23,700 nt of DNA, from NCBI GenBank assembly GCA_029834535.1, contig JAQMWT010000258.1, forward strand, positions 1-23,700, given 5' to 3'. The position numbers and the translations under genes were made by a program. Position 1 is the stretch's first letter. The number at the start of each line of letters is the position of its first letter. This DNA comes from Chrysophaeum taylorii. Taxonomy: Eukaryota; Sar; Pelagophyceae; Pelagomonadales; Pelagomonadaceae. The notes below the pieces were generated by a model. The model made no database searches, had not been told where the DNA came from, and saw nothing but the letters and a program-made list of their open reading frames with translations. Shown here piece by piece: positions 3 through 18,485 of the stretch.

Positions 3-2207
3 CACCCTGGTCATCTCTTCGTACGACGTCAGGCCTTACAACTTGGACCCTTCCGTGCTCTCGTTCATCTCATTTCCGAACATGCTCACGCTTTTCACAA
101 GTTTCCTCCCGCTCAATATGCCTATGCTTTGCTCACACCCCATTCCATTTTGGATCATAATGACGCTTCTTATGGTGCCTCCGAGCCTCACCTCTCCGCC
201 ATCGAAGACTACATCACCGTGCAATCTCATTACATTGAGGCCCGCTTTGGCGATGCTCCTCTACTAATTGTTCAACTTGTCGAAGACCCCGATTATGCTC
301 ATACTACTGATCAGGTCGCCTCTTACGCAATTACCCATCTTACGACGGCTCACGACCCCAGCACTGTTGGTCCGGGCGAATATAAAATTCAAGCCAAAGA
401 TATCAAAATTGATGAATGTGAGTTGAACTGCCTCAAAGGTCTCTCAGACGCTGATCGTAAAGCTTATATCTCCGCTATCTCCAAAGAGATATTTGATATT
501 GTTGAGTTTGACTGCTTTAAACTCGCATTGCCAATGGTCAACTCAAAGCCTATTGACACCCGCCTCGTCCTACGTATAAAAACCAATGCTGCCGGTCAAT
601 ATCTCAAACATAAAGCACGCCTGGTCCTACGAGGATTCTTAGCCTCTCTGGGCACTGATTTTTTCAACACATTCAGCCCCATGGCACAGCTTACTGGCAT
701 CCGTTGTGTTCTGGCGCTAGCAGCCCATCTGCGACTTCCCGTCTACCACGTCGACGTACCTAACGCTTTTGTTCAAGCTCCCATAGACTCTCACGCCTAT
801 GTTAAACTGCCACAAGGTATTTACCTTCTCGATCCTGAAGATACCAAATATCAAGGCCGTCGTCTCCCAAAGTTACTTAAATCTCTTTATGGATTACGAC
901 AAAGTCCTGCCCTATGGAATCAAACTATAAATAGCTTCTTTGATTCTTTAGGCTATACACGCTTCCGAACAGATACGTGCATTTACGCTAAAGTCCAAGC
1001 TGACGCTACATTTTTAATTTGCACGCTCTCAGTGGATGACGTCGTCATCACTTGCACTTCGGAAACTCTACGTCGTGAATTCCAGCAAGCCCTGAAAAAG
1101 GAATACTCAGTCGACACCTTTGAAGAAGCTCATACTCTCTTAGGCATGCGCATCACGCGTACTACTGACGGTTCCATCTCACCGGACTGTCAAGCTAAAC
1201 TTGATGCATTGTTCGAAGAGTACCCCATTTTAATGCAGTTACGTCCCACTTCTACACCGATGTCACCATCAACCACTAAAAAAACTGGAGAGCCATCTTC
1301 TGATATGGACAAGTTTATTCTTCATACCTTCTCCACCTTGCTCGGCAAGCTCACTTTTGTACAATTGGCCTGTCGTCCTGATTTATCCCAAAGCCTTAGT
1401 CGTTGCTCTCGAGGAATGCATAATCCAGCATTTCTACATGTTCAAGTACTAACAGGAACGCTCCGCTACTTGCGCAAGCCCGAAAATCGTAATCTTCGAC
1501 TCTGGTACTACTCTGGCTCTTCCGCACTAATGGACCATCTTAGACTTCTCATCGGCACTTGCACTGATATGGCAACCATGTTGGATTACACTAAAGAACA
1601 AGTCAATTCAGGTAACTTTGATCCATTGGTCGCGTTCGTTGATGCCGATAACGCACCCTCTTATGAACAAGACCGCAAGTCTACAACCGGCTACGCCATC
1701 TTTTTGTTCGGTTCTCTCATCACTTGGAAGTCTAAACTACAGCCTATTACCGCTACTTCTACGCATGAGAGTGAACTCATCGCCCTTAATATGTGTGCCG
1801 ATGATGTGGTCTGGTTACGCAAATTGTTAACGGAAATGGCATTCGCTATAAACCCTCAATACTATCTTCGTCAACCTTCAGGGAAAGATCTGTTACTAGA
1901 TTATGATGCTCACGACAACCCGCTCCCAACGGACACGTCGTTCATACGTAACAGTCCTATACTTGGGGACTCTGCTTCTGCTATCCATCTATCAAATAAT
2001 CCCGACAGTGCGACTAAGGCCAAAGCTATCAGCACACGCTGGTTTCGTATTCGCGACTACGTACAGCTAAAACGTATACGTCTACATCATGTTTCCGGTA
2101 CTCAAAACATTGCTGACGGATTTACTAAACCCTTCGGAGCTCCGCTCTTCAGCAGATTCCGCACGTTACTTGGCTTACAGCAACCCATAGCTCCGCAAGA
2201 TGGGTGA
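3..2207 (+). CDS. Copia pol polyprotein, C-terminal part: reverse transcriptase and RNase H (5' partial)
   Basis: The frame is open from the window edge to the TGA at 2205-2207, with no ATG needed, so this is the C-terminal end of a polyprotein that begins upstream. Residues below are counted from codon 129-131. The RT domain covers about 120-345: the KARLVLRGF block at 162-170, a first catalytic Asp in HVDVPNAF (D209), SLYGLRQSP at 252-260, and the catalytic box at 301-304. That box reads SVDD where copia elements usually have YVDD; both aspartates are kept. RNase H covers about 500-668, with FVDAD (D505), STHESE (E547/E549), GDSAS (D614) and NIADGFTKPF. Between these blocks there is extra sequence (about 570-610) compared with typical copia RNase H. 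No stop or frameshift interrupts about 735 codons, unlike every other retroelement frame in the window, so this copy may be young. Confidence 0.93.
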   Translation, partial: HPGHLFVRRQALQLGPFRALVHLISEHAHAFHKFPPAQYAYALLTPHSILDHNDASYGASEPHLSAIEDYITVQSHYIEARFGDAPLLIVQLVEDPDYAHTTDQVASYAITHLTTAHDPSTVGPGEYKIQAKDIKIDECELNCLKGLSDADRKAYISAISKEIFDIVEFDCFKLALPMVNSKPIDTRLVLRIKTNAAGQYLKHKARLVLRGFLASLGTDFFNTFSPMAQLTGIRCVLALAAHLRLPVYHVDVPNAFVQAPIDSHAYVKLPQGIYLLDPEDTKYQGRRLPKLLKSLYGLRQSPALWNQTINSFFDSLGYTRFRTDTCIYAKVQADATFLICTLSVDDVVITCTSETLRREFQQALKKEYSVDTFEEAHTLLGMRITRTTDGSISPDCQAKLDALFEEYPILMQLRPTSTPMSPSTTKKTGEPSSDMDKFILHTFSTLLGKLTFVQLACRPDLSQSLSRCSRGMHNPAFLHVQVLTGTLRYLRKPENRNLRLWYYSGSSALMDHLRLLIGTCTDMATMLDYTKEQVNSGNFDPLVAFVDADNAPSYEQDRKSTTGYAIFLFGSLITWKSKLQPITATSTHESELIALNMCADDVVWLRKLLTEMAFAINPQYYLRQPSGKDLLLDYDAHDNPLPTDTSFIRNSPILGDSASAIHLSNNPDSATKAKAISTRWFRIRDYVQLKRIRLHHVSGTQNIADGFTKPFGAPLFSRFRTLLGLQQPIAPQDG

Positions 2208-2317
2208 CCCTTACCCTTCACTATGTCCGAAGTGACGTTAAACTAACCCTCATGTACAACGGAACCAAGGCTCGCTATTATGTGAAATGAAATACGCAAT
2301 GCGGGGATCTTTCTAAG

Positions 2318-4309
2318 ATGAACCCAACAAAGAACAAGGATGCTGCGAGCCGACGTTATTCGTTACTGAACCGTGGCCGCGGTGGCGTGTCATCATTATC
2401 TTCCCCTTTCAATGCGTTAAATCCAGGCGCTGCTCCAACCAGCTCTCCTAATCGGAGACATCAGACATATCTTTCGGTCGCTCAAGGAAATCAGGCCGCG
2501 CCCGCGACGCCTAAGTCATCAACTGTCCAACAACAAACTAAACCGCAAGCAGCAAAGTCCGAGTACTTCCTGCTCAAACACTGCAAGTTCGATGCGATGG
2601 CGAGGATGTCAGGAACATCATGGCGCTTGGTACCCAGCCACCAAACTTTCTACTGCCACCACCTAAAGATCCTCAATGTTGGCATCAGTCCATTCAACAG
2701 CTGCTTACGGAAGCACAACAAACAAACTTTGTGGACAATTTCCAGTTCCTGAGTTCCTTGCTATGTGTAAAGGCAAGGCGCATCAGGAACGCGCCTCATA
2801 TATCACCCAATGAAGGTATACGCTACCATCGATACCCATCCATTAAAGGGGTTGTCAAAGTACATGTGGCGTGTACCAGGTGCTATAATAAAACCAATGC
2901 GCCGGGTACACCCCTTGTACTCGCCATTTGCTCTGAAGATGAGCTTAAAACGGACAAGATAATGAAAATCATCGAAGATCATCTCGCGTCTGAACACATG
3001 CTTCGCATTGTTTTGACGTACCGCGTCCCTTCTTTCTGTTGATTTGTGTCATGTGCAACTTATCACAGCATGGGACAGCGTTAATTCGCAATAATCAACA
3101 ATCTTTTCATCTTCCATGTTATAACGATCCAGCTGCACACATGAGAGCTATCATTCTCCGCCTTGGAAAGTCCATTGCTATTAACAAGCTGCTCAAAGAG
3201 GCGCTCATGCATTGCATGGCGAGTCGTAACGTTGATGCCTCTAAAATCATCATTAACCCTGACGACAATGCTCCTCTCTTGTTACAGCTTCCTTATATCT
3301 CGAATGTCAATCTTGAGATTCTTGTAGCGGCTTGGTCCTTACTACAATCTGTTGAGGATAAAATGTGTGTAGTGACCAACCCTGATGAGCTACTTAATGT
3401 GCTCATCGAACGCTTCGTTAATGACGTTTCTCACCAACTTAACGCGACTTCTTCCGAGACGGTACCGCCAATGCTTAACTACTTTCGCCAACTTCCACCT
3501 GAACATCAATCCTCTTTTAAAAACGTGCTAGTCCAGGTTGGCTATCCCTCCGCTATAATCGATGCCTTTTCAGATAATACATTATCGGAAGGTGTATTAC
3601 CAGTACCAGTCGAAACCCCATCCGCTGAGTCCATGCCAGACACATTTAATGACAACATATGGTTGAATCCCTACGCCAGATAAAAGAAGAGATTCAGTCG
3701 TTATCCTCACGTCTCACTAACAGTGAACAGCAATTGATGGCAAAAGACCAACAGCTATCGGTTACGCTAGAGAACTTAACCCAGGTACAAGAAGCTTACG
3801 AAAATCTACACACTCAAGTCACCGACAATATTAAGCATGTCGCGCTTTTGGATAACATACTATCAAGCCTCCAGATGAATCAAGATAACATTGTACCAAC
3901 CTTAGCTGTCTTTGTCCACATAATTTCACGATCGCTTGTTTCGTCTATTGGACAGTTTCCTCCAAATACCTATAATGAATCACAGCAAGCTCTAATCGAC
4001 GATGCAGCGCATAATGTACATGCAGCTATGTCTAATGCACAGGATCGTGTTATCCCGGCACTTGATCTGCATACACTAACACCGGACGCAGCTATGTCCT
4101 TCCTCTCGTCTGTTATGGCACCCCTGGTCACCTTAAGTGATGCTATGACTACGAACAATACTGTTAATGACCAATCCTCCGAAGATCATGATTCTTCCTC
4201 TCCAGAGTTAAAGGAACTGGAAGATAATAGCGAGGATGAATTGGACCACACATCTGATGTTGTGGATACCGCTCCTTTACGCAACATCACGACACGCCGG
4301 ACCTCTTAA
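2318..4309 (+). pseudogene. ORF2 of copia element A, downstream of RNase H; function unknown, split over four frames
   Basis: Four overlapping open stretches (2318-2752, 2620-3042, up to 3683, and 3659-4309) follow one another with frame changes, consistent with one protein of roughly 650 residues broken by indels; introns are a less likely alternative. It starts with an ATG 110 bases after the pol stop. The N-terminus is Ser/Pro/Gln-rich and basic. The middle has Cys-x2-Cys (2872-2883), a further Cys, and His-x4-His, followed by Cys-x2-Cys-x17-His-x2-Cys (from 3045). The C-terminal part is predicted helical and ends in an acidic tail. No signal peptide or membrane segment is evident, so an envelope protein is unlikely. 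I do not recognise the family. A decayed homologue sits at about 20900-22800 on the minus strand, including a shared ISPNEG motif. Gag is not visible in this window, so a displaced gag-like role cannot be excluded. Confidence 0.6.
3659..4309 (+). other. Coiled-coil and acidic-tail segment of ORF2
   Basis: This is the last open stretch of ORF2 (216 codons, ending TAA). Residues about 1-70 are rich in Glu, Gln, Leu and Lys with heptad-like spacing, as expected for a coiled coil (for example QIKEEIQSLSSRL). The middle is mixed and helical. The last 50 residues are strongly acidic (SSEDHDSSSPELKELEDNSE) before a short basic end. A coiled coil suggests oligomerisation, and an acidic tail is common in capsid-associated or chromatin-binding proteins, but neither role is shown by the sequence. 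The upstream stretch runs 25 bases into this one in a different frame, consistent with an indel near 3660-3683. Confidence 0.5.
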
Positions 4310-4431
4310 ATTGATCTGTCGTGTTACCTCCCCATGTCTTGTTGTTGTTTGTTCACCTGTTCGCAGCTCCTATGTACATTACCCAAGTTCGCCCTCAATA
4401 ACGTCTGAAATGCATACACCCTTCTTTCACA

Positions 4432-4844
4432 CGTTGAGGTGGTCCAGAGAGCTACACTATTGTGTGTACGACACTGGAACTTCTCACTCCTTTCACACCT
4501 ATCTCCACAAGAGGGTTTTCTCTCCGTAATACGGCTTTCCCTCTTTCCTTCCTTACCCCTTCCGCCCTTATATCTCAGATTATGAAGAATTAGATCTGCA
4601 GTTCACTTCCAACAAGGAGTAGACCTCCAGGTGCGTACCGTCAGGTATGGGGTTGTCTGTTTAATTAATGGAGGCTTCATTCCTCATTGTCAGTGTGAAC
4701 GCTTCTATGGGACCTAATGTCCTTAAGAAGTTAGGGCCTAAATCCCTACCTTGTGTAGTAGCATGTGACAAGCGGAATGGTCTGCACACGCCTAAGACTG
4801 CACGCAGTCTCTACCATGTACCCGGAGAGGGTCAAATCTCTCTA
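4432..4844 (+). repeat. 3' LTR of element A (about 413 bp)
   Basis: This sequence is repeated at 13618-13684 plus 18599-18923 (same strand) and at 20816-20076 (minus strand, with an insertion). The start is placed at the TGTTGAGG seen in the inverted copy, which here reads CGTTGAGG. The end is placed at TCAAATCTCTCTA, aligned to CTCCA and TCTCA in the other copies. Long stretches such as the CCGTAATACGG block and the following pyrimidine-rich run are almost identical in all three. A TATA-like CTTATATCT at about 4566 lies where an LTR promoter could be, but this is only suggestive. Confidence 0.8.
4524..4534. promoter_or_regulatory. Conserved 11-bp palindrome in A-family LTRs
   Basis: CCGTAATACGG has perfect 5-bp arms around one base. 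It is unchanged at 18618-18628 and 20729-20739 although the surrounding LTRs differ. It may be a transcription factor site in the LTR; that role is inferred. Confidence 0.35.
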
Positions 4845-5454
4845 ATAGTGCTATATACCTCGGGACGCGCTAGACCATGATGATGAGCTTGAGCACAAAT
4901 CAGAGGACTAATTGACTGTGTAGAAAGGAAGAAGAAGGGTAAGGAAGAGATCACGTTCTCAACGGACGGATAAGGGTAAGAGGCAGCAGATTTCTCTGCA
5001 GCTAGGAGACATCCTTTGGTGCCTTCGGTGAGGCCAGCGCGGCGTGCCACGCTCTCGCCCAAACATGCGCAGAGCGCATCGCTGCGCGAACCTGGGTGAC
5101 AAGCGGCTGCGCCAACTTCACAGAGGCAAAGGCGGCCCAAACTCGCCGCATCTACCGTGAGTGGGGGATCGCCAACGCATTAGGCCGGGCTCGCTGTGCC
5201 CTCACCGCCCTCACCCATGTCGCCGCCTCGGGGAACCCCGCCCAGGCCGCCCGATCCCAGCAGGACGTCACCCTTCGTCGCACATACGTCCGGCGGCAGC
5301 ATGCGTACGACCTACGGGCGGGGCCCGTCCTCTCTTCGCCTGCCCCAAGCCTCGGCGATAACCCCGACTAGGTCCCGCGTACTTGTCTCCGCCCGTCAGG
5401 CACATCCCTCATACCCCACAAACCCACCCACATCCTTCATGCTCCCCACACACA
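4845..5454. other. GC-rich stretch between elements A and B; possible unrelated LTR
   Basis: About 600 bases with a sharp rise in GC from about 5020 to 5370. On the minus strand it follows a G8 tract and begins TGTGTGTGGGG, and it could end at TGCTCA near 4890, so it may be an LTR of about 565 bp attached to the 3' end of element B. However, it does not resemble the sequence next to B's primer site, and no second copy exists in the window. It also contains the unidentified plus-strand ORF at 5006-5371. Confidence 0.3.
5006..5371 (+). CDS. Unidentified GC-rich ORF, about 121 codons
   Basis: The frame is open from after a TAG at 5003-5005 to the TAG at 5369-5371. An in-frame GTG exists at 5096, but there is no clear ATG start. 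The product is rich in Ala and Arg (for example AAQTRRIYREWGIANALGR), with an N-terminal Cys-containing part and a Pro-rich end. Its base composition differs from both neighbours. I do not recognise it. It could be a gag fragment of another retroelement, an exon, or a chance ORF in GC-rich DNA, where stops are rare; overlapping open frames in the same place favour caution. Confidence 0.25.
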   Translation, partial: ETSFGAFGEASAACHALAQTCAERIAARTWVTSGCANFTEAKAAQTRRIYREWGIANALGRARCALTALTHVAASGNPAQAARSQQDVTLRRTYVRRQHAYDLRAGPVLSSPAPSLGDNPD

Positions 5455-5467
5455 CCCCCCCCTCTTA
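5455..5467 (-). promoter_or_regulatory. Polypurine-tract-like site (minus strand)
   Basis: On the minus strand the sequence reads CTAAGA followed by eight G and then TGTGTGTGG. A run of this type directly before TG is typical of the plus-strand primer site and LTR start of copia elements. It lies only about 12 bases beyond the last stop of element B's decayed frame. This is consistent with an internal deletion that removed RT and RNase H but kept the 3' end. Confidence 0.35.
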
Positions 5468-5478
5468 GCAGTCGACAT

Positions 5479-6444
5479 TTAAAGACATCCTTTCGGGACA
5501 TCATTTGGCGGCTTAGCATCCCTTTTAATGTTGAGATCAGATGCGATGCTGACGGCATGGCCCTGGTGCAGAGCGCTGACACTGATGAGGAGCATCAATG
5601 TGCTGGACATGTTGGTTGTGGCGCGAGCCGTGGATTGCTCCTGCTGGTATTTCCAGTTGCGACCATACTCTGAAGCGATAATGCGTCTGGTGAAAGTTTT
5701 CCATCGTCGACACGTTTCACGATATATAGTTGATCCTTGGGAATGCGGAATCCGCGCTCGTCCTTGAGATCTGCTTTGAGTTTGTCACTCTGGTTGCGAT
5801 GCACGAGAACTGGAGTAAAACCTGAATCGTCGAGAACAACCTCTAGTCGGTCGTTTCGTTTGGGCATCGGGATGCTACCATCCGGCGGGGGTGGCCGGTT
5901 GAGGAACGAAAAATCCTGTTCAGGTGTCTCGTCGCTGACGGGACTTGGATCAGCAGCGGAGGTTGGATCCGGTTCTTTGTGCTCGTCATGTGCAGGTTTG
6001 TCATCAGGGTCGTCATCTTGAGTCTCACCCTCATTTGTCGATTCCTGGCTAGCTTCCGGCATTTGCTGTTCGCTTATAGCTGGGGGCGGGTCCTCTTGCC
6101 GTACCTCTGCTGGGTTCTGTGCGAGTGCTTTGACCCGCTCAACCTCCTTGTTGCGGGGGTTGACTGGCATGTCTGCATCAACGTGGAAGTCGTTAGAGGT
6201 GACGTTTTTTCAATATCGCCCCTGATGTACAAGCAGAAGGGAGCTATGAACATCACGGATAAAATCGGTCCGTGCCGGGGAGGTTGGGGACGTAATTGTT
6301 GCTTGCAAGATAGGATGCGGGGACGCTGGAGGGTTCCAGCTTGTGACTTTGAGGATAGACAAAGGTGACAGGTTCACTAAAGGGAAGGAGCTTCAAGAGC
6401 GGTGCCATGGGTGGCATGATGCGCCGGGGGACGGTGCAAGTCAT
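5479..6444 (-). pseudogene. Element B: post-integrase region and linker of copia pol
   Basis: After the integrase core the frame shifts near 6441. The next stretch (6444-6253) contains SHKLEPSSVPASYLASNNYV, matching the segment with conserved Lys-Leu and Gly/Ala-Tyr positions that follows integrase in copia polyproteins. Then comes an acidic, proline-rich linker (6170 to about 5700) with runs such as GETQDDDPDDKPAHDEHKEP. Past about 5740 a second frame, ending at TAA 5481-5479, looks at least as protein-like as the first. No RT motif follows, so the conserved catalytic part of pol ends here. Confidence 0.65.
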
Positions 6445-7154
6445 GTTGGTGTGCGAAGGCAGTCCATGAGAGCGCTGATTGTCGGCTTGAATCTTATGCA
6501 GCAGAGCAAAGGGATATGATAATACTCGGCGGCAATAGACTTTCCTTCGATGCGGACACTGCGAAGATTGAGGAGGCGAACTACAGTGCCTCGGTTGTTT
6601 TCCTTTATGATGTTTTCCGCAAAATTCCGCTGGTGGAGGTGGCGACCAATGATTTGAAACTGGATGCCGAGTTGCACCTTGAGCAGGTGGAATGCTTCTG
6701 AGCCGAAAGTTGAGAATGCATCGGACGATATGATGTTCACATTTACATCGAATTCGACCTTAATCACATTGACCACGTAGAGGATGCCAGCCAGAACGTC
6801 CTGTGCGTTTAGTTTGCGCAGGAAGTAGACCCACTTGTGTGCTGAGATAATACACACAAAGTGCATGATGTAGCGAAAGCCACCATAGCATTTGCCGATG
6901 CTCGGGTATGAGACATCCATGTGGAGGTGTTGGCCAGGAGCATAGGCCAATTCATCCTGTGACCAGGAATTGTTCTTGTGACTGAAGCTTACATGCGATT
7001 GGCAGCGCTTGCATTCACTGCAGTCTTGCAGATACCGATCATCACCTGTACGGAGATTCGTTACATTGGCGGCAATCGTGCGGCGAAGAATCTCTGGTTG
7101 CTGGTGATGTATGCGGTGCCAGCGAGTGACCAAAAGCACTCTTTTGGCGTGCTG
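6441..7154 (-). pseudogene. Element B: integrase (HHCC zinc finger and DDE core)
   Basis: This is the C-terminal part of the open stretch 7952-6441. The zinc finger shows His residues in RWHRIHH and Cys in DCSECKRC. The catalytic core shows D in HLHMDVSYP (residue 346 of the stretch, about 6917), D in NIISSDAF (411) and E in RNFAENIIKENNRG (446), a D-34-E spacing close to the usual 35. The family inserts element cDNA into the genome using these three acidic residues. The domain is complete in one frame, but it is cut off from the methyltransferase N-part and from the linker by frameshifts. It sits after the methyltransferase, whereas ordinary copia elements go directly from protease to integrase. 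Confidence 0.88.
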
Positions 7155-7249
7155 AATGGTGCCGGGCTTTTGCAATGCAACCTGGTTGATGTCTCCGGGG
7201 CTGGGGATGCCATTGCGTATTGTTGCCCATTCGATGTGAAAGTTCACGT

Positions 7250-9308
7250 GGTGGTGCGATTCGTGGAGTGCGAGGACAGCGCTGTAATTTGCCTGCAGCA
7301 TGTGGTGCGGGACGGCGTTGGCCAGTGCCTTAAACGCGAAGTACGGCGGGTGCTGTTGGAACAGGCGGAGCTGTTCCGGGTCCGAGTGGTGTCCAAACTT
7401 TGCGATTTCGTTGAGGGTTGCATAGAGGATGTGGTCTGGAGAGATCAGCAGCAAGGCGTTGGAGTAGCTCGTGTTGGTTGGGTACGAGCCAGTGACCGAG
7501 TAACACTTGGTGCTTTTCTGAAGCGTGTCTCCGATGTGGCCGACGTAGTCCGCGCAAGTGGGATGTGCTTTGGACATTATGAGTCCCTTGGGGTCATCGA
7601 GAGTAATTCGCCCTCGTGAGTCGATCGCGGCAAAGCCAGGATGCGACCGATTCAAGTAGTGGACCCAAGTGGACGGGCGCGAGCAACTGTGAGCGGCGGC
7701 CAAGGAGGTGGTGTAGGCGACGACCAGAACGGCGGTGCCCTTGGGAACATCCAGGGAAAAGGCGTGCGTTGGGGAGAAGACTGCGGGTTGATGTGAACAG
7801 TCAAATATCCGAGGGGGCCTGGAGTGTACGGTGAGGGAGGCGCGGGGAAATAGCCACAGGCGACGGCAGTAGCGACGGTGCCGGTGATGGCTCCATCCAA
7901 ATGGTAAGCACATTGGGACTCTGAGGCATGAAAACAGCGGAGGGTGTTCCAAACGGCGAGAGTGGGATGTTGCGACAAATGATTGTGCTGCAATGTGAAA
8001 ACCAGTAGGTGGGAAATGTACTCCATGGTGGTGTAGGGGGTGCCGTCGGCATCTAAACCGAGATCCGCGAAGGGCTTGGTGACGCGTGCAAGCATTTGAC
8101 AGATGCGGGCATTTTCGGAAATCGAGAGTTTAGAGGCGTTGGCGGGCGCGTAGGAAAAGGTGGCCTTGTGTTGGTAGTAGGTCAAGGTGGAGCGGGGCAC
8201 GGTGCCACGAAGGGCGGGGTTGGCGATCCAGAGATCGTCGGGGATAGTGTTGCTGGGGTCCAGAAGTGGAACCATGCTCGGAGGAGATGTTAACCAGGGA
8301 GAAGCGTTTTTCTCGAGGTTGTACTCGGTGAGCGGGTGTCGGGCATAGACAGCGAGATAGCGGGCCTTGCTGATCGCATCGCCGAAAGCGGAGGCTTTGC
8401 TAAGTGACCTAAGCGCTGATAGCCATTGGCGAGTTGGGTGTACTCGTGATGAGTTCGGGGGTTTGGAGGGACGTTCTCGACAATGGCGTAGGTCGAGAGC
8501 GTGCAGCGAACAAAGCGGATTTGTTCTGTGACAAAAAGATCGGCGGTCACCGGAGTGGCGTAGCCGTCATATTTTTTCATTACACTCAAATGTTGACATG
8601 GCAGTGTGAAACCCGCTAAGTCGAAATGGGGTAGTCGAATTTTGCCGGTTTGCAGAGCGGCATTGAGTTTTCGTAGATCGGCATAATGCTGAGCGTGCGG
8701 GAAGAGTTGTTGCGCGCGAGCGCGCATAATAGGGTGAATTTCACAGGTGACCACGACAGTACTACGGTTGTCGAAGCGTTTGCGAAAAGAGATGAAACCT
8801 TCTTGGTGAAGTCCACCTGCAATAATAGCTGTTTTTAGCGGAGGGGGTTGTGCTTGCACAGATAGATCCGCTGAGGTAGTGAATGCATATTGGGCGACAG
8901 TACGCGGGAGGCTAATGAGGTCCGATAAGAAGATGGAGTGATGCTGTAGCTTAGCAAAATCTAAGATGTGAGATTGCGAGCGTGTCTTTGCGACATGCTG
9001 TGTGATGTGTGCGAGTTCATCCTTGAGTGACCGGCGTTTTCCGGTGTGAAAACTAACCACAGCGCGGGTGGTTTGTTTCGGATGAGACGGCAGGGGCAAC
9101 AGGCCATTGGTTTGGCGATTGGCGAGAACTATTGCTGTTTCACCTAGAAGCTTCTTGTAATCGTGGGGATCAGCGGTCGACGTGTTCATTAGCTCATACA
9201 GGTGTGGTTCGTGTGGCAATGGCGGGTCGGTTGCTTGGACATTTTGAGCTTTGAGCTGCGATGTTGCTATAACCTGTAGACCTCTTCGGAATTGCGGGAC
9301 GACCAGAA
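7250..9308 (-). pseudogene. Element B: DNA (cytosine-5) methyltransferase domain between protease and integrase
   Basis: Motifs appear in canonical order. In the stretch starting 9219: motif I-like AIIAGGLHQEGF (residues 131-142), acidic residue in TCEIHP (E160), a DLRKL block (181-185), catalytic motif IV LPCQHLS (Cys208, codon 8598-8596), and motif VI VENVPPN (248-250). After a frameshift near 8400 a motif VIII-like KARYLAVYARHPL follows. Then comes a long putative target-recognition region (about 8330-7390, with a further frame change near 7790), then PEQLRLFQQHPP and motif X-like KALANAVPHHML (about 7328-7290). The family transfers a methyl group from S-adenosylmethionine to carbon 5 of cytosine. 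The frame upstream of 9219 is open back to the retroposon insertion and reads on from protease. It is not functional here because of the frameshifts. Residues 1-125 have no recognised domain. Confidence 0.85.
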
Positions 9309-9713
9309 ATAACTAACTAACTAACTTCAGACCTCTCCCGAGCATGGGAGCCAGGCCGGACCGACAGGAGCCAGTCCGGAATCACGGGCCTGTAGACGAG
9401 GGGCGCCGAAAGGTGGGTCGGCGGAGAGTGATCATCAAGCTTGTCGCCATGCGACGAGGAGACCGCGATGTGACTGACAACCAACTCGTCGATAACCTTC
9501 CGTCTGCGCCCCCCGGCCATACCCCGTCCCACTGCGAACGTTCCGGCTGCCAACCGGCCCGCCCGGGAGGCGAATAGGTGCCAACCTACGCCGGGAGGGC
9601 GGATGCCCTCGCAAGGCTCAGGATTCATGAGGCACCGTCCTCCATCGCAACCATGCGGTCGGCGATCTAACTAACTAACTAACTTCAGACCTCTCCCGAG
9701 CATGCGATCAGGG
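9309..9713 (-). mobile_element. Short retroposon copy R1 with nested 5'-truncated copy
   Basis: On the minus strand it starts CCCTGATCG and ends in GGTCTGAAG plus repeated GTTA units (9325-9309). The same approximately 350-bp body occurs at 19144-19496 and 20241-20588. Near its 5' end, at about 9705-9667, there is a second short copy consisting only of the last 21 bases (CATGCTCGGGAGAGGTCTGAAG) and a TTAG tail. It is flanked by GATCG on both sides, as expected for a truncated copy with a target duplication. The whole unit splits the protease-methyltransferase frame of element B. Open frames inside it are artefacts of GC-rich sequence. I see no convincing pol III A and B boxes. Confidence 0.75.
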
Positions 9714-10600
9714 TAAGGATATACGAGATATAAAGCGTATCCGGTGGATTCTTTTATGTCCTTTGTGGAGTGATCTGCGGCCTGCAAGTACAACGGTTTG
9801 ACACCGATGAAATGGCTGGTCAAGGTGCCTCTTCCCATACGTATGGTGTGTTCGGGAATCCGGCGTATCGACTCGGGTACATTGTGTTGAATTGCGCGAG
9901 TGAAGCAGAAGGATGCGCCACCGTCAATTAAGAAAGTTTCGGTGCCGGGTCCATTGCATCCGTGCAGCGAGTTAGTCTTCTTTGAGGTCTTGCCTGGAGT
10001 GTAAGTTGCACAAAGAAAATCTGCGACTCTGGGAGAGATGGTTGATGATGTCGGGAAATTCGTCATCGTGAGGCTTGGTGCCTGGTTGAGTAAGATGTGG
10101 TTGGCGGCACAGGCGTCGTCGGCAACCATCAGCGAAAAAGCTGACTCTGGTAGAGAGCACGCATAGTCACTGTGACGTTGTGCGTAATCTTCGGCGGAAT
10201 CATCTTCATCATCTATTTCGGGGATGGTTTCGTCGTAGAGGCCTAGGTGTCCGTGGTCATCATAGAATCCGAGATGGCCTTGGTCATCTTTTTCGTCAGG
10301 TTCGCCCTCATCAGATGGATCATCCGGAGGATCGGACGATAGCACCTGAAGAAACTCTGCGGCATCGTTATCGGCTTCGGAGAGAAGTATCTCGTCGGAG
10401 ATGGTGGTGATGAGGTTGATTAGCTTGCTCATGCGCTCGGAGCTGGACGTATGTTGGCGACCGGCTTGGCTGAGATTCCGTATGGTTTGGAGCTTGCGAC
10501 GGACTTCGCGAAGGGGGACTTTGAATCGCTGTGTCAGGAGTAGATGGTTTGGGTGGATGCGGTTGGGTTGGGAAGTTGACCTTGCGAAGATGCGGGTGCT
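9714..10600 (-). pseudogene. Element B: aspartic protease region
   Basis: The stretch 10630-9671 contains ETFLIDGGASFCFTRA with the catalytic Asp at residue 236 (codon 9925-9923). Copia proteases usually read D-S/T-G-A; here it is D-G-G-A. A second conserved block follows (TIRMGRGTLTSHFIGV). The last residues before the retroposon (YALYLVYPYP) join in frame with FLVVPQFRRGLQVIA on its far side, so the insertion split one frame. Upstream lies a very acidic region with an internal repeat (GHLGFYDDHGHLGLYDE). No CCHC zinc knuckle is visible between gag and protease. The frame is entered by a shift near 10540. Confidence 0.75.
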
Positions 10601-12319
10601 CGCGTTTGTCGGGGGTGACAGGAGCAGCACGGGGATTTTGCTTGTTCTTCGTTGGGGTGACAGGGGTGGCTTTGGGCTTTGGGCTTTGGACTGTCATTGA
10701 TGTCATAGTACGACGGAGAGCGAGGATTGTGAGGCTGTTTTTGGGGGGGGCTTCTTGGGATGTCGTGTAAACTGCTTCTTTCTATAGGCGTGTAGTTGTT
10801 GGATGAGATCATTGTCGTCATCTTGATCGAGGTCGGCCTCCGTGAGAAAAACAGCGACAGGGTCGGTGTCTTCGGTTGGATCCGGAGGGATTTCATCTTC
10901 GGAGGGAGAGGTGTCATCATCGTCTTCGGCGAGGTGGAGACCATTACGGCGGGAGCGCAAACGTGGATTGTCTTTGTCTTTAGTCGGCAGATGACCAAAG
11001 TCAGTGACGAATCGCAAAGGCTTGAAGTTGAGGGTGGGATGAGGCTTGAGGTGAGCCCAAAAGTTGCGCTCAAAAGTGGAGATGACTGTGACGCGAGCGA
11101 TTAGCTTGGGAAGGTGATTTATGGCTTATTTTTTCGTCGAGTAACAGCGAGTCGTTTGGAGTACGTAGACAGTTAGCAAGACGCGCGAAGCCCTTGATGT
11201 GAGTTGGGGCGCGGGAGTCAAGCAAGCTTTGAGGGTACTTGAACCGAAGTATTTGGTGGATTTCTTGGAGGATCTTTGCGTCAGAGAGTTGGATAGAAGA
11301 ATCGTTGGTTATTTGGCGAAGTTGCTGCTGAACATGGCGCATGTAGTCGATGTAATGCGCAGGTTCGTGAATCTCCGGGTTGAACGGCGTGTCCAGGAAG
11401 GCATTGTAGACATAATGCGCATGGTGGACGTGGTTTCGGCCCGTGTGCTTGTCGAGTGCGAGGCGAACTTGAAGCACAAATTCGAGTCCTATAGGATGGG
11501 AAGATCCGAGTGCGTCAATTTCGTCGTATGCTGGGTGCTTGGCGGTGTCGCTACCGGCATGCAGGAAATGGCGAAACAGGGGGTGCACGGTCTCGCGGAG
11601 TTACACGATGAAGTCGGCTTCTTTTCCTTGGAGATGAGGTTGGGTGATCGGATACAACTTGCCGTTTGTCATATCGGTCGGGTCCATGTCTTGATCTTTA
11701 AGTTCTTCGAGCTTTGGCTCGTAGACGTTCTCCAAGAAGTTTTTGCCGAATTTGCGGTAAGTGCCCTTGTAGTAGACGTAACGGCCTTGGAAATATTGCG
11801 TGTTCCCGGCGGTAGAATGGTTGTCGGGATCTTTATCGAACTCTTTGATGCAGTGGCTGAGAAGAGCGTCAGCGAAATTGTTAGATCCACGCAAGACGGA
11901 TTCCCACGTATAGAAGCCCTGCAGGAAATATTGGGTTATGCCTGTTTCAGGCATCAGATGTTCAACGAACAACTGCATGACACGAAACGAAAGCATTTGG
12001 GGCGTGACTTGTGCGGAGTCCATGGACTTGAGGACGGCGCTAGGTGGGTCACTAAAGGTGTTAGCCTTGGTCTTGGGGTCTTGTTGAGCTGGAGGGGGGG
12101 GTGGAGCCGCAGCAGCGACGGCAGGTGGTGGTGCTTGCGTTGCTTGCATTTGGTTCAGCATGGCGCGAAGGTCTTGAATGTCTTGTTTTTGGGCTGCCAT
12201 CTCCCTTTGATGCCGAGCTTCGTACGCTTGAGCTCGCTGTTGCATGTCTCTTGGTACTTGGCTTCTAGGCGAGCTTCTTGTTCTCTCATCTCCTTTTGGA
12301 GTTCTCGATTGGTTGGCAT
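10540..12319 (-). pseudogene. Element B: gag-like region, broken
   Basis: An ATG at 12319-12317 follows the primer site by about 75 bases and opens a Glu/Lys/Arg/Gln-rich helical stretch (coiled-coil-like). After a frameshift near 12250 the main frame runs from 12245, through Pro/Ala-rich APPPAVAAAAPPPPP, into a folded region of about 370 residues. It is broken by an in-frame TAA at 11603-11601; the flanking residues continue smoothly, so this looks like a point nonsense change. Further shifts occur near 11100, at a run of eight C near 10750, and near 10540. The C-terminal part is acidic, then basic and proline-rich. Assignment to gag rests on position and composition; no gag motif is recognised. 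Confidence 0.55.
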
Positions 12320-12392
12320 TTTGCTTGGGATCAGGAACGTCAGGGGGCGGTGGGACTCTTCTGGAAATCCTGAGGCTCTGCTGATACCGGGA

Positions 12393-12406
12393 CTGGGCCC
12401 ATAACC
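12393..12406 (-). promoter_or_regulatory. Primer-binding site of element B, matching the anticodon arm of initiator tRNA-Met
   Basis: The minus strand reads GGTTATGGGCCCAG, the exact complement of the CTGGGCCCATAACC anticodon stem-loop typical of eukaryotic initiator tRNA-Met. It begins one base after the LTR end (TTCTCA). Drosophila copia and yeast Ty5 are known to prime from an internal tRNA fragment in this way. Confidence 0.75.
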
Positions 12407-12407
12407 T

Positions 12408-12514
12408 TGAGAACAGTAATTTCTACTGTGTTACCCTTCAGCAGAGCGCGAGAGCAGTGGTAGTCTGCCCTCGAATCTGTCTCCTAGAACGAGGACAGCC
12501 GGTGTGAATAACAC
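12408..12514 (-). repeat. Putative 5' LTR of element B (about 107 bp)
   Basis: The 3' boundary (CA at 12409-12408) is fixed by the primer site. The 5' boundary is tentatively the TGTTATTCACACC at about 12514, giving TG...CA ends and a length similar to element C's LTRs. No matching 3' LTR is present, so the start is uncertain and the LTR could extend towards 12600. Confidence 0.45.
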
Positions 12515-12584
12515 CACGTCCTCTTAAATCAAAAGGTGCTAAAGTTAAGGGGACTAACCATGGAATAGGGGGTACTAAGCCTAA

Positions 12585-13617
12585 TTCAGATTTCTATCTC
12601 TAGAGGAAGCCGCCGAAGTGCCGAGCCCACCCGAGTTCGCGACCGAGAAAGAGAGAGAGCCACCAGAGAAAGATGCTGCTGCGGGCGCCGCTGAAGATTC
12701 AGAGGCGAGACGCGCGATGCACGAGATGGCAGCTGTGACGATGCAGATGCCGGGCGACGCGGATCCGAAGGGGCGATGCCATCATACTGCTCTGTCGCCG
12801 CGCGATGGGACAACGATCGAGGAAGACCTCGTCACCATCGGTTGCCTGCACACTGGCACGCTGACGTTCATGGCTGGACATATTTATAAAAGACGAGACG
12901 GGCCGAAGTTCGCAACGACCATTGGTGTTGATGGAATGGCTGATGTCTCCTATATTTGCCGCGAGATGGTCGCAAGTTGGCGAAGGACAAGATAATCTTC
13001 GACCAAGGCGAACTCCCAATCGAGCGCACCTTGTATGGGTCGGGGTTGAACACGACGACTATCCACAAATGGGTTGCGTTACGAGTTGCTCTTGCGACGA
13101 CGTTGACGAGTCGATTCCCATGTCCTGACGTTCAGATCAACTTATGAGCGCAACCCGGTGGAGGTTCCCATTTTCGGCCACCAGCACCCCGCGATGAGGC
13201 AGAGCATGAATACGATCGAGGATCGAGCTTTCGCTCGCTTGTGCACGATTAGAGACCACCAGCGTCCACCGCCGGAACGACCGGTAGTTTCGACGACCTG
13301 GGGAGTCTCGACCGTCACTCCTTCCCAAGTTTCGAGCAGCGCTTCCCATGAAGTGGTTGCCTACGCTGCGCGCACAATGAAGGTCGAGCCTGGACGCACT
13401 TGCAGCGTACCAGTCACCCTTTCAGAGCCATTGGAAGACGGGCAAGTTTTTGTCGCTATATCCTCTGGATACGAGCAGCTCGGGGTAGTCGATGGAATGT
13501 GTTCGTCTTGCGAGGATCACGACCAGTCCGCCGCTCGTGTAGCGATTTTATCCACCCAAGATGTGCCGACCGTGACTACTCAAGGAGAAGTGCTCGCCCT
13601 CGGTGATATTATTCGTT
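12585..13617 (+). pseudogene. Protease and protease-RT linker fragment, probably Ty3/gypsy-like
   Basis: Two stretches (12585-12995 and from about 12956) form one protein broken by a frameshift. The first has an acidic/Ala-rich start and then ATTIGVDGMADVSYICREM, which aligns with the D-S/T-G-A active-site region of retroviral-type proteases but with a degenerate triad. A further frame change near 13147 leads to 13158-13617, with AARTMKVEPGRTCSVPVTL and ARVAILSTQDVPTVTTQGEV. This resembles the beta-rich module found between protease and RT in many Ty3/gypsy polyproteins (conserved PG...VPV and late Gly). The fragment stops at 13617, where A-family LTR sequence begins. The assignment is from pattern only; a host gene fragment is possible. 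Confidence 0.45.
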
Positions 13618-13684
13618 TCCAGAGATTTACACTATTATGTGTGCGACACTGGAACATTTCACGCCTTTCACACCTATCTCTGCA
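13618..13684 (+). repeat. A-family LTR (copy A2), left piece, cut by element C
   Basis: CCAGAGATTTACACTATTATG to ACACCTATCTCTGCA aligns with 4446-4510. The LTR's first dozen bases are missing. The alignment resumes without a gap at 18604, on the far side of element C. Confidence 0.8.
13680..13684. repeat. Target-site duplication of element C, left copy (CTGCA)
   Basis: CTGCA directly precedes the element's first TG. The same five bases follow its last CA at 18599-18603. Confidence 0.85.
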
Positions 13685-13780
13685 TGTGACAACTGGAGTG
13701 GGGCGTTACACTAGCGATAAGGGAATGACGTTCGGATACTGGATACGAGGTGCAGGGGTAAGTGTCATAGCTTCCTCGCA
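13685..13780 (-). repeat. 3' LTR of element C (96 bp)
   Basis: It matches 18504-18598 except for one extra G, a two-base difference (TTC versus TAG context) and one G/A near the end. At under 100 bp it is unusually short for an LTR. Confidence 0.88.
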
Positions 13781-13885
13781 CAGGTGCTGGAAAAGAAAGA
13801 AAAGGAATAAGGGGTAAGTGAGGTCCTCACACAGGTGCTGGAAAAGAAAGAAAAGGAAAAAAAAAGGGTAAGTGAGACGCTCACA
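13773..13885. repeat. 51-bp tandem duplication at the inner edge of C's 3' LTR
   Basis: The block from TCCTCGCACAGGTGCTGG is repeated after 51 bp (13773 and 13824) and ends in a partial third GGGTAAGTGAG. It spans the LTR boundary. The purine-rich strand is the plus strand, opposite to what the plus-strand primer of a minus-oriented element requires. Confidence 0.7.
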
Positions 13886-13961
13886 GAGGAGAAGCTGGAA
13901 GGTGGAAAAAGACGTCGGGAGAGGCATTGTGGCAGAAAGAGACAGGAGATGTCGGGCGAAG

Positions 13962-15695
13962 TCACGAGGTGAGGTGACGAGCACGAAGCCGGAGGAATGG
14001 AGTAGCTTCCGTACTGCGGGTGAGGATATCGCTAACGTTGTCAAGGCGGGGAATGTGCTGGAGATCAATGATGTGATTGCGATGATATTCAGCGGTGCTG
14101 TAAAAGCGAATGTCAATATGGCGGGTGCGCCGCGTGAGACATTGGAGACGGACTTGGGTGACGCTGGTGCTGTTATCGACATACATTGGTACCGTGTGAC
14201 GAGGGAGATCAAAGGCCAAGAGAGCTCAGCAGTAGCGGCGTAAAGAGCGAGCAATTCAGCTTCAAAAGAGGAGCGGGCGAGGAGGTACTGCCAGCGTGAG
14301 CTGTAGGAGATCATAGAGCCACCAAGCAGAAAATAATAGCCAGTGGTAAAGTGACGGTCATCAGGGTCGTCGGCCCAGCTGGAGTCGGAATAACCACAGA
14401 GACGAAGGGTAGAATCGCGACCAAGAACAAGGGCAAGATCTTGAGTACCATTGAGATAACGGAGGGTATGAGATAGAGCGTGCCAGTGGGGTTTACCAGG
14501 ATTGTGTGTAAAACGCGCACACTGATTGACGGACCAAGTGATATCAGGGCGAGTCATAACAGAAATAAACGAGATAAAAAGACACAACCGACAATACGAC
14601 GAAAAGGGGATGCGTGCCATGAAGACGTGATCGGGGGAGCCAGGTGCAGGACAGAGCGGGAGTCAACTCTGGTTTACTGTTGATGAAGCGATGTTGGGCG
14701 AGGATTTCACGGATAGCATGGGATTGGTCGATAGCGAGCGTGCGACGTGCGCGATCACGCGTAATGCGGAGACCAACGTAAGTGTGAAGATCGAGCTCGT
14801 TGACATCAGTGAAGGCTTTGAAACGGAGGAAGAAGGCTTGGTAATGGCCAAGGCAATGACGAGGGTGCGCCACAAGAAGATCATCAACGACAAGAACAAG
14901 ACGTAGAACGACAGTAGAATTAAGCAAGAGCTTGTAACTGCAAGTGTCACCAGATCCGCGGACGAAGCCACAATCATTGACAAGGAAGCGTTCTAAGTAA
15001 AGCCACCAGTGGGGACGTGCTTGCGGGCAACCGTACCAAGAGCGACAGAGTTTGGAAATGAGTGTGGAGGTATCTTTGGGTTGGCTGGGAGCATAGCCTT
15101 CGGGTGGCCAGACATAGATGTCTTCGTCAATGGGAGCTTGGATAAAAGCGGAGCTGACATCCAGCGTATGCAAATCCCAGTCGTGAACAGCAACGCCGGA
15201 CAGGGGATTGTATGAAAGCAGATATGACATCTACAGGACGGTACGTGTCGTGGTAAGCAATGCCGTGAACCTGGGTGTAACCGCGGACAACGAGATGAGC
15301 ATTGTACGATTTGAAGCGGCCAGATTCATACTTCGTGCGGTGGACCCACTTCAAAGGGCAGATGGTGCCAGAAAAAGTAGAAGGAACGCGAACAACATCC
15401 GAGCAACCGAGCTGACCGAGGGAATGATATTCTTTGGCAATGGCTTGTAACCGACGTGCAGGATTTGGATGGGCTAGAGCTTCGCGCAAATGAGGGGACG
15501 TGAGAGCACGGTCATCAATGTACGAATATTGAGATGCTTATTCGGAAGCAGAGTATAAGCGTGGACGGATTGGGGATCATCAAGGGTTTTGGCGAGACAG
15601 AGGGGGAGGAAGACATAATGAACTAACAAACTGAAAGCTCGAAGAATTAACGTACAGGGAAGGACAAGATGACACAGAATCGAAGGGAATGACAA
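13962..15695 (-). pseudogene. Element C: copia reverse transcriptase and RNase H, frameshifted
   Basis: The order on the minus strand is pre-RT segment (LAKTLDDPQSVHAYTLL, from 15695), then RT start (KWVHRTKYESGRFKSYNAHL, YTQVHGIAYHDTYRPV), then a shift near 15230. The next stretch has DWDLHTLDVSSAFIQAPIDE and the catalytic box LVLVVDDLLV (DD at 14885-14880), where Tyr of the usual YVDD is Val. It continues with LHTYVGLRITRDRARRTLAI. After another shift near 14640 come TRPDITWSVNQCARFTHNP, GYSDSSWADDPDD (RNase H Asp) and SSFEAELLAL (RNase H Glu). A last shift near 14230 leads to PMYVDNSTSV (RNase H Asp) and RLDNVSDILTRS, ending at 13962. Several frame breaks make it a pseudogene. Confidence 0.88.
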
Positions 15696-15980
15696 GATGA
15701 CACAGAATCGACAGTGCGTGGTAAAACGCCAGTATTGTGGGTTTGAGTTGTTTCTCCATTTGTTTCAGAATAATGTGCGCTTTTGTCGACTTTGCGCGGT
15801 CGGCTCCGTTTGGCTCGACTTTGTTTTGCATGCTTTTTGTTTTGTCGGCTCAGGTTGGCTCGACTTTGTTGTGCACTTTGCTGTGGGGGTTGTTGGTTCT
15901 TCGGAGGTCATGGGCCCGGAGAATGGTCGGTTCACGTGATGGGGTGATCAGTCCCAGTGAAACCGGCGCATTCTCATCAA

Positions 15981-16062
15981 ACACAGGGGACAAGGGGGCA
16001 ACAGCGGAAGAACAGGTGACAATCGGGCAACAGCAGGAACAGGTGACAATGGGGCAACAGTA
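15981..16062. repeat. Minisatellite of about 27-30 bp, three degenerate units
   Basis: Units share GGGCAACAGC followed by GGAACAGGTGACAAT, with small insertions between copies. Confidence 0.7.
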
Positions 16063-16693
16063 GACGATAGCTTGGAAGCGTGATTCGAGAAAGTCGGAAC
16101 AACGTTGAAGTGCCTTCGGTGGGTGACATTGCAGGAAATCTGATAAGCGAAACTGTCAGCAAAATCGAGGTCTGAAAAACAATAGCGACAAAAGTGCCTG
16201 GGATGACTTGCGTTAGGCGATTGTGGCCACTGAGAATCGCAGCGGGCAAAGATAGCGGGAACACAGGCTGGTATATATGATGGCAGTGTACCAGACGTCT
16301 GATGAGAACGCTGCCTTTGGTCAGATATGTTGTATGGTGACCAGGCTATGACGATGGTCGGAGGCGACGGAAGCAAAAACAGGCGTAAACAGGGTTGATG
16401 CGAACGTTGGGTATTTGGGTGTTGTGACGCGAGCAAGTTGCCATGGGCACGACCGCGTCCTGTACGCGAAGATAGAAGACTTCTGACGCGCCAGCGGTGT
16501 AAGGAACACGGGGAGACCAGGTTGCTGTATGCCAGCCTGCTGTGGCAGATAAGAAAGTGGCCCGTTTTCGCATTCGCAAGAACGAAGTTGCCATCTGGGC
16601 CAACGTTGGAGGAGCAAGCGGCGATCTTTGCTCGTCATACTCGAATAGACGGCGGTAGAAGTTGGCGATAGTGGCAAAACAGTGGTGGCACGT

Positions 16694-16750
16694 AAGAACG
16701 TTGCAGATAGCGTCGCAGTGACACGGAAGAACAGTGCAGATAGCGTCGCG
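16694..16750. repeat. 33-bp tandem repeat, about 1.7 units
   Basis: AAGAACGTTGCAGATAGCGTCG at 16694 recurs as AAGAACAGTGCAGATAGCGTCG at 16727. Confidence 0.7.
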
Positions 16751-17040
16751 GGTGCGGAGAACGGAATTCACTTCGATAGCAAAACCGAATTTTAAAGGTC
16801 AGAAAAGCGGCGAAAAGGCGATAGTGCGCGAAGGAGAACCACAACATTGTGTTGATACCGGAGATGAAGAAGCCGAATCACACAGCAAAGAAGCGTCGGT
16901 CCAGGATCCCGAAGATGAGCGATCCAACCACATAGGAAGCACGAAAGTTGCGCACGCGAAAAATTGACAGGCACAGCTTAGTTGTAGCGGGTGAAATGCG
17001 CGATAGAACGTGATTCGCTGGTTTTACCAAAACCGACAAG

Positions 17041-18470: not shown

Positions 18471-18485
18471 ATCGTGAACGAACGA

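Follow-up and report, generated by a model that had tools for sequence, protein, structure and literature searches.

A predicted, divergent C5 methyltransferase domain inside the pol of a high-copy Ty1/copia retrotransposon family of Chrysophaeum taylorii

The stretch of DNA that we analyzed (the window) spans the 23.7-kb contig C258 in full; the Chrysophaeum taylorii assembly to which this contig belongs comprises 697 contigs and 70.8 Mb. The window raises the question of whether the motifs of a cytosine-5 DNA methyltransferase, read between a protease and an integrase, are part of a retrotransposon and, if so, what use the element would have for such an enzyme. As a complete explanation we favor, with moderate confidence, that the window carries a decayed copy of a high-copy Ty1/copia family with a divergent C5 methyltransferase in its pol, which would methylate the element's own cDNA or insertions. 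The separate points of domain identity (a C5 methyltransferase) and architecture (within a copia pol), as judged from sequence, we regard as nearly certain.

On the minus strand of the window is a broken and truncated Ty1/copia element with the pol order protease, C5 DNA methyltransferase, integrase. An earlier note on this DNA had listed a set of methyltransferase motifs in order, and that set is indeed present on the minus strand, in the order given, across three neighboring ORFs, as found in six-frame ORFs and by tblastn with the pol of L016, the uninterrupted copy that served as reference. ORF 9312-8290 contains the motif I-like AIIAGGLHQEGF, motif II (CEI), ADLRKL, LPCQHLS and VENVPP, ORF 8566-7652 contains KARYLAVYARHPL, and ORF 8129-6441 contains ANAVPHHML. 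By tblastn the methyltransferase occupied three frames (9339-8296, 8395-7847 and 7850-7176), with the protease upstream (10165-9719) and the integrase downstream (7205-5694). The first part (8296..9339, minus strand) includes motifs I-like, II, III, IV (PCQ) and VI (ENV), and its equivalent passes PF00145 in L016 and L018. The second part (7847..8395, minus strand), in another frame, has the motif VIII-like KARYLAVYARH and the start of a large region between motifs VIII and IX; the third (7176..7850, minus strand), again in another frame, completes that region, continues through motif IX to motif X (NAVP), and is 91% identical to L016 over C258:7194-7850.

The remainder of the element could be followed on both sides of the enzyme, also on the minus strand. 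The start of the 5' LTR (12491..12604) was recognized from a sharp shared edge at ~12604, up to which the flanks of copies differ, and from the recurrence of its ~113 bp after the RT region of L016; the 3' tail of L016 (9389-9501) matches window positions 12602-12491 and also occurs in the leaders of L018-L022, in part of L017 and on the 3' side of L023. A 217-bp tandem repeat in L016 was also considered as the LTR and was dropped, as it sits in gag. A broken gag-like region (10142..12422; ORFs 12422-11601 and 11600-11070, then to 10142) is matched in pieces by the gag of L016 over 11857-10142, and the gag-like ORF gave no significant Pfam match in either the window copy or L016. The aspartic protease region of pol (9719..10165; C258:9710-10051 is 82% identical to L016) had no Pfam match in the window and contains DGGASFCFT, which we read as a retropepsin motif. 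The protease is split from the methyltransferase by a later insertion (9310..9707), foreign to the element and bounded by 40-bp direct repeats that are spaced 358 bp apart; stretches related to this insertion occur elsewhere in the window at 19213-19496 and 20242-20595. The integrase (5694..7205; C258:6513-7040 is 94% identical to L016) comprises a zinc region, a D-D(35)E core and an acidic linker, with an rve score of 19.8 bits, below the cut-off of 32.6. The last pol remnant (5443..5754) corresponds to pol residues 1414-1515, and past a break near 5443 the reverse transcriptase is missing, with no further minus-strand match to L016 pol in the window. The region between the protease and the integrase zinc region exceeds the span first noted, corresponding to about pol residues 157-860 in L016. 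Because of the two methyltransferase frame changes, the insertion and the break, the window copy is no longer one pol unit, and in this respect the earlier note needs correction.

Two uninterrupted natural pol ORFs, of 1952 and 1868 aa, each have DNA_methylase and RVT_2 above the Pfam cut-offs, and a single natural frame runs from the protease through the RT domain in L016 and from the protease into the RT domain in L017. The integrase core of L016 (residues 1025-1125) is upstream of RVT_2 (residues 1686-1933), which is the copia order, and RVT_2 scored 133.2 bits in L016 and 97.9 in L017 (cut-off 31.6). Pfam rve scored 17.2 bits in L016, below the cut-off, and the D-D-35-E residues of the integrase, at pol 1025, 1090 and 1125, were present in 23/24 (Asp), 22/23 (Asp) and 18/18 (Glu) copies. 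Long terminal repeats flank the element: on C514, C104, C4 and C3 (best 40 of 333 candidates scored) the shared LTR-start sequence occurs twice, at a distance of 9.2-10.1 kb, and encloses matches to the protease, enzyme, integrase and RT. As an element, L016 is itself defective: its RT has VDG at a position where the four other covered copies have VDD.

More than 100 further places of the element are present in the genome (cluster count). Genome searches identified 151 matches to the protease (150 listed; best 150 of 231 candidates scored), 153 to the integrase (150 listed; best 150 of 753), 126 to the N-half of the methyltransferase (all listed; best 119 of 477) and 152 to its C-half (150 listed; best 150 of 338), and the RT search scored the best 150 of 1384; since each search scored the best candidates only, these copy numbers are lower bounds, and counts may also be inflated by pieces of one copy listed separately and by duplicate-looking contigs (C25/C521, C10/C297). 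A protease was found upstream, on the same strand and within 8 kb, for 104 of the 150 listed integrase matches, a set that leaves out the other 46 integrase matches and in which some matches are pieces of one copy. The enzyme was located between protease and integrase in 104/104 of these pairs using the N- and C-half lists, and in 92/104 using the N-half list alone; both halves were present in 90 pairs, the N-half only in two and the C-half only in 12. The median spacing between protease and integrase was 2836 bp (range 1550-5715, with 89/104 within 2500-3300), and even the shortest pair, of 1550 bp on C490, still had the C-half of the enzyme. The placement of a C5 methyltransferase-like domain between the protease and integrase of a copia-type pol, as proposed in the earlier note, is thus supported by all 104 pairs and by the occurrence of RVT_2 and PF00145 in one natural ORF, and the copies going straight from protease to integrase that would have spoken against it were absent among the 104 pairs. 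When matches were clustered, 97 of 138 integrase clusters had a protease cluster upstream, and the enzyme was within 3 kb upstream of 124/138 integrase places and within 3 kb downstream of 118/140 protease places; the other 14 integrase places and 22 protease places had no enzyme match in that range. Stops and frame changes break many copies. The possibility that the enzyme is a host gene beside an element was considered and rejected.

Broken copies would also be found if a methyltransferase gene had been inserted by chance into one element and copied passively ever since. We consider this scarcely credible given that the enzyme is in 104/104 protease-integrase pairs, that its dN/dS is as low as those of the protease and RT, and that a second copia family, with an RT identity of 42-44%, also has the domain before its integrase (both described below).

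The assignment of the domain to the C5 methyltransferases is based on ordered motifs that include the PCQ Cys and the ENV Glu. In alignment with C5 enzymes of phage, plasmid and host, motifs II, III, IV and VI and the motif VIII region were in the expected positions, and motifs IX (RYATLNEIAKF) and X (NAVP) come ~300 residues further on in L016; the motif names follow general usage for the family. The ~300-residue VIII-IX region is read as a putative target-recognition region. Among countable copies (a copy broken at a motif falls out of the denominator for that motif) the key residues were nearly invariant: the PCQ Cys in 27/27, the motif II Glu in 28/28, the ENV Glu in 27/28, the motif IX Glu in 24/24 and the NAVP Asn in 25/26, with the Val of ENV replaced by Ala in 3/27. 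Two motifs deviate. The usual FxGxG of motif I was absent, IIAGGLHQEGF being found in place of LFxGxGG, and at motif VIII the last Arg alone of QxRxR was kept (28/28 countable copies), with the earlier positions differing. As a consequence of these two deviations methyltransferase activity is not assured, and methyl transfer to the C5 of cytosine is a predicted function.

The profile evidence has to be taken from other copies because the window piece alone, which is frameshifted, scored 16 bits against PF00145 (E 0.0087), below the cut-off of 22. For L016 the score was 32.1 bits over its whole pol and 34 bits (E 2.7e-8) for the domain by itself, for L018 34 bits and for L017 29.9 bits, so that the search with the C5-methylase HMM suggested in the earlier note failed for the window piece and succeeded for these three copies. 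At E up to 1, PF00145 matched 7/10 aligned copies and NCBIfam TIGR00675 (dcm) matched 6/10, with a best E of 3.4e-8; the TIGR00675 score of L016 was 33.5 bits, below the model cut-off of 100.65. When the L016 domain was run by tblastn against 50,697 phage records, 18 of them matched at E 1 or better, and of the 10 listed, seven matched under a gene annotated as DNA methyltransferase or methylase, two under 'hypothetical protein' and one was an unannotated record; strong among those listed were only two vir335 records (of one phage; E 4e-6), the others being at 0.03-0.2. Comparison by hhalign with nine C5 enzymes gave a probability of 90.7% (E 1.3e-6 for that single comparison).

Given these results, the suggestion that the domain is not a methyltransferase at all, and that its motifs were simply read by eye in frameshifted DNA, is very improbable: the uninterrupted copies exceed the Pfam cut-off, and tblastn, hhalign and NCBIfam agree with one another. 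What speaks for it is the sub-threshold score of the window piece and two further outcomes. No relative was identified when 5.8 billion protein sequences were searched with the domain in two ways, once with the window piece and once with a 10-row alignment (8000 candidates sharing most words). The single-sequence structure prediction for the window piece (mean pLDDT 32, pTM 0.19) was unusable. Among solved structures, a set that holds DNMT3A, the profile search found nothing better than 8yf3 (E 1.2). A protein search with the whole pol returned 376 proteins, and PF00145 was absent among the domains shown for the best 120 of the 376. Two peptide patterns were scanned against viral contigs and two against prokaryote genomes, with 29 and 54 hits, respectively, none of which was confirmed as a relative.

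With regard to relatives of the enzyme, an element profile run against a set of ten sequences scored phage DNA methyltransferases best (vir335 5.8e-7, Miro 4.8e-5, Hades 9.7e-5), with the host DNMT2 at E 0.91 and the host DNMT5 not reported. The result thus came out against the DNMT5 or DNMT2 of the host being the closest relative, and a tree also puts both outside, weakly. In this 14-row tree (five element rows and nine references) the vir335 enzyme groups with the element enzyme at 93/95, a bootstrap that had not settled; because the rows are so few and DNMT1, DNMT3, CMT and DNMT6 are absent from it, the tree names no origin for the enzyme and does not establish descent from a phage enzyme. 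The DNA methyltransferase of Caudoviricetes sp. vir335 (DBA35631.1) is the best match to the catalytic region outside this genome in the collections searched (E 4e-6); it differs in being a free-standing phage protein of 371 aa with canonical motifs I and VIII.

In order to compare selection among domains, Nei-Gojobori dN/dS was calculated as medians over pairs with dS > 0.05, after dropping codons in stretches with <50% identity to L016 (windows of 11), in gaps and at stops, a filter that favors conserved sequence in every domain alike. Since pairs share copies and copies decay after insertion, the values serve for comparison between domains and are not absolute. The dN/dS of motifs I-VIII was 0.17 (29 copies, 402 pairs), compared with 0.15 for the protease (21 copies), 0.08 for the integrase (22 copies) and 0.20 for RT (5 copies, 10 pairs). 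The whole methyltransferase domain was at 0.19 (29 copies, 12 with a stop in the domain), the VIII-IX region at 0.23 (29 copies) and motifs IX-X at 0.16 (24 copies), and the linker after the enzyme and the acidic linker were at 0.31 (23 copies) and 0.42 (9 copies), respectively. The constraint on the enzyme therefore resembles that on the protease and RT, and its dN/dS is below those of the linkers.

The age of the capture is indicated by a second copia family. In the RT search a gap separated the members of the first family from a second set (C560, C681, C445, C214 and C601), whose identity was 42-44%. The enzyme was at one point suspected, from coordinates, to be absent from the second family, and reading 2.2 kb of C560 overturned this: the integrase there (31% identity, E 3.3e-36) is preceded by a stretch that has RYVTPEETARI at motif IX and shares 30% identity with the C-half of the enzyme (E 6.6e-7), both E-values being for that 2.2-kb locus alone. 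C214 has motif I- to III-like sequence, a weak match (profile E 0.0044, set of 12 frames), and, in another frame, a IV-VIII part (E 2.5e-7, set of 12 frames) in which GAPLSRIRWFAF occupies motif VIII. When searched against the genome, the C560 stretch gave 37 matches, with first-family copies returning from E 5.5e-5 on, and the IV-VIII part of C214 gave 58, with first-family copies from E 2.1e-5 on. Further diverged relatives are suggested by matches of 34-55% identity, most of them with stops, on C102, C681, C96, C315, C526 and C139. The second-family pieces were not recognized by Pfam. As this diverged family keeps a homologous domain before its integrase, the capture appears to be old; most simply, it would have happened before two or more copia families diverged, a later exchange of the segment between families being a less simple alternative.

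In both second-family copies that were read (C214 and C560), PCQ is replaced by ECT and ENV by EEM, and the dN/dS between their domains was 0.17 over 129 codons (one pair). Since the domain is kept under constraint with these replacements, it can persist without canonical catalysis, and this raises the question of whether the first family, too, retains it for a non-catalytic job (DNA or RNA binding, particle assembly or integration targeting), in the manner of a methyltransferase fold that is catalytically dead, with methylation lost or incidental. The deviating motifs I and VIII of the main family and the very large VIII-IX region (~300 residues in L016) point the same way. Against it, the main family shows hardly any variation at the Cys, Glu, Asn and motif IX/X residues, and the catalytic part is slightly more constrained than the VIII-IX region (0.17 versus 0.23), as expected if catalysis matters. 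On balance we consider a non-catalytic job unlikely. The PCQ-bearing and PCQ-less versions, both constrained, form a natural series for asking what use the enzyme is to a retrotransposon.

The precedents named in the earlier note, in dinoflagellates and Klebsormidium, are real and concern other classes of element: in the account of de Mendoza et al. (2018, PMC5890265), the elements that carry a DNMT are LINE and DIRS in Symbiodinium and Gypsy in Klebsormidium, and the Copia elements of Symbiodinium are described as having no DNMT domain. Close in organization is KnitGypsy-Dnmt3 of Klebsormidium nitens (PMC5890265), an LTR retrotransposon whose Pol polyprotein ORF likewise includes a C5 methyltransferase, under purifying selection (Ka/Ks < 0.2 as given there, median 0.17-0.19 here). 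There the enzyme belongs to the DNMT3 family, the element is Gypsy and the host is a charophyte; the present element is a copia (integrase before RT, RVT_2) from another lineage with an enzyme of no assigned family. SymbioDIRS-Dnmt3 and SymbioLINE-Dnmt resemble it as retrotransposon-borne DNMTs of very high copy number and are unlike it in being carried by DIRS and LINE elements, not copia; de novo CG methylation is reported for the SymbioDIRS-Dnmt3 enzyme (PMC5890265). For streptophytes and dinoflagellates, one sentence in a 2025 paper (PMC12344493) mentions 'LTR Copia and DIRS' elements that carry a DNMT3, citing the 2018 paper, which has Gypsy; the disagreement may be a slip or an unpublished detail, and because the sentence is ambiguous, priority for copia is not cleanly claimable. 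The words stramenopile, ochrophyte, Aureococcus and pelago- are absent from the main text of PMC12344493. In a stramenopile alga, Ectocarpus, the ParB-methyltransferase of Sola1-1_Ec32 is also a transposon-carried DNA methyltransferase, unlike the present case in being a separate gene of a DNA transposon and of the predicted N4-cytosine or N6-adenine type (PMC12477816, as described there). Beyond the sentence in PMC12344493, no copia element with a C5 methyltransferase was found in searches of the open-access literature. As far as could be searched, then, the element class and the enzyme lineage are new, and a retrotransposon-borne C5 methyltransferase as such is known. A copia case at >100 places, in two diverged families and with an enzyme unlike the host's own, indicates that such capture recurs and lasts.

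The use of the enzyme to the element has to be judged together with the methyltransferases of the host. The PF00145 search of the genome listed 57 matches, of which two are host genes, a DNMT2-like gene on C634 (1g55, E 3.9e-39) and a DNMT5-like gene on C621 (7r76, 482 bits), and the other 55 are presumed element copies. The structure 7r76 is deposited as Rad8 and corresponds to the DNMT5 of Cryptococcus; elsewhere, DNMT5 is a maintenance enzyme. Adjoining the host DNMT2 gene is one whose product is similar to light-harvesting proteins (VCPI-6, FCP8) from algae of the chlorophyll c type, which points to a photosynthetic alga, perhaps an ochrophyte-type one. DNMT1 and DNMT3 were not found in this non-exhaustive search (best 123 of 474 candidates scored), which, because it reads exon by exon, does not establish the absence of DNMT1, DNMT3 or DNMT6. 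DNMT5 and DNMT6 are described as present in pelagophytes and other stramenopiles (PMC9998398).

Clear CpG depletion was absent in the element copies, with observed/expected ratios of 0.98-1.04 in eight loci and a median of 1.03 in 20 more, compared with 1.06 and 1.09 in other copia stretches of the window and 1.26 and 1.46 in two host loci. Nor were C/T differences highest at CpG over 349 aligned pieces (CpT 0.138, CpG 0.125, CpC 0.094, CpA 0.071). The missing CpG footprint would be compatible with methylation in a non-CpG context or of short-lived cDNA only. It also counts in favor of an enzyme that methylates RNA (for instance, tRNA primers or the genomic RNA of the element) rather than DNA, in the manner of DNMT2. 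We consider an RNA substrate improbable, as phage DNA methyltransferases, not the host DNMT2 (E 0.91), scored best in the ten-sequence set, and as the large VIII-IX region is presumably unlike DNMT2. In its favor, retrotransposon enzymes are discussed as possible RNA methyltransferases in PMC5890265.

From the position of the domain inside pol, its upkeep under selection and its conserved catalytic residues, we infer a job in the replication cycle of the element. Methylation of the element's own DNA is our tentative choice for that job, to which we give slightly less than even credence. The element protease would free the enzyme, or the enzyme would act fused to the integrase, inside the virus-like particle, where cDNA is the most likely of the available substrates; cytosines of new double-stranded cDNA, or of fresh insertions, would be methylated, and the maintenance-type DNMT5 of the host could make such marks heritable. 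The outcome might be either that the cDNA is disguised as host DNA or that expression of the element is limited to a level that the host tolerates. Two observations count against methylation of own cDNA, namely that a clear CpG footprint is missing and that the sister family has no PCQ. Likewise, the proposal of the earlier note, that a retroelement-encoded enzyme could methylate its own or host copies, keeps its conditional form, the copies being without clear CpG depletion.

Since only DNMT2 and a maintenance-type DNMT5 were found besides the elements' own enzymes in the non-exhaustive search, a more speculative reading, of low probability, is that the copia-borne enzyme is the sole de novo methyltransferase and that DNMT5 copies its marks, in which case the methylome of the host would hinge on a selfish element and the second family, with its altered motifs, could be a regulator or decoy. 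With a DNMT5 in the host, it also becomes possible to test where de novo methylation comes from.

In the sister copia family, two loci (L075 on contig C214 and L084 on contig C560) were found to have retained the methyltransferase domain, although at both of them the PCQ of motif IV is replaced by ECT and the ENV of motif VI by EEM. The domain is under purifying selection in this family, with a dN/dS of 0.17 for the one pair compared. The sister-family domain is possibly a catalytically altered version of the enzyme.

Among the main-family loci, the median dS along pol was 0.54 for motifs I–VIII, 0.21 for motifs IX–X and 0.60 for the integrase, with the sets of copies differing between regions. 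This strong unevenness hints at recombination between subfamilies, with the qualification that it is drawn from copy sets that are not identical. Two further features were observed in this family: a perfect 217-bp tandem duplication within gag-like sequence of the uninterrupted C96 copy, L016 (457–890), and a 74-bp stretch common, in opposite orientation, to the break of the window element (5414–5487) and the leader of another copy, L017 (8100–8171).

The window element is interrupted between protease and methyltransferase by a short repeated sequence (9310–9707) with 40-bp direct repeats, which start TAACTAACTAACTAAC and lie 358 bp apart. Repeat comparison within the window identified relatives, in part inverted, at 19213–19496 and 20242–20595, and a similar translated stretch was detected in L074 on contig C560. 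By appearance, the insertion resembles a miniature non-autonomous element.

Other copia sequences share the window. A second element, different from the methyltransferase element, lies on the minus strand at 13618–18768 with LTR-like repeats at both sides; its RT fragments fall inside 13706–15537, one matching RVT_2 at 52.7 bits. A lone LTR-like stretch occupies 4443–4673. A third copia family (3–4309 and 20951–23694) has an RT ORF at 3–2207 (RVT_2, 141 bits; 33% identity to the RT of the methyltransferase family), followed by additional ORFs at 2291–4309, one coiled-coil-like; some copia elements carry an env-like gene at the corresponding position. Its 3–4309 portion has inverted matching stretches at the opposite contig end (20951–23694). 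Finally, a minisatellite of approximately seven 36-bp units was observed at 17044–17299, inside open frames of both strands.
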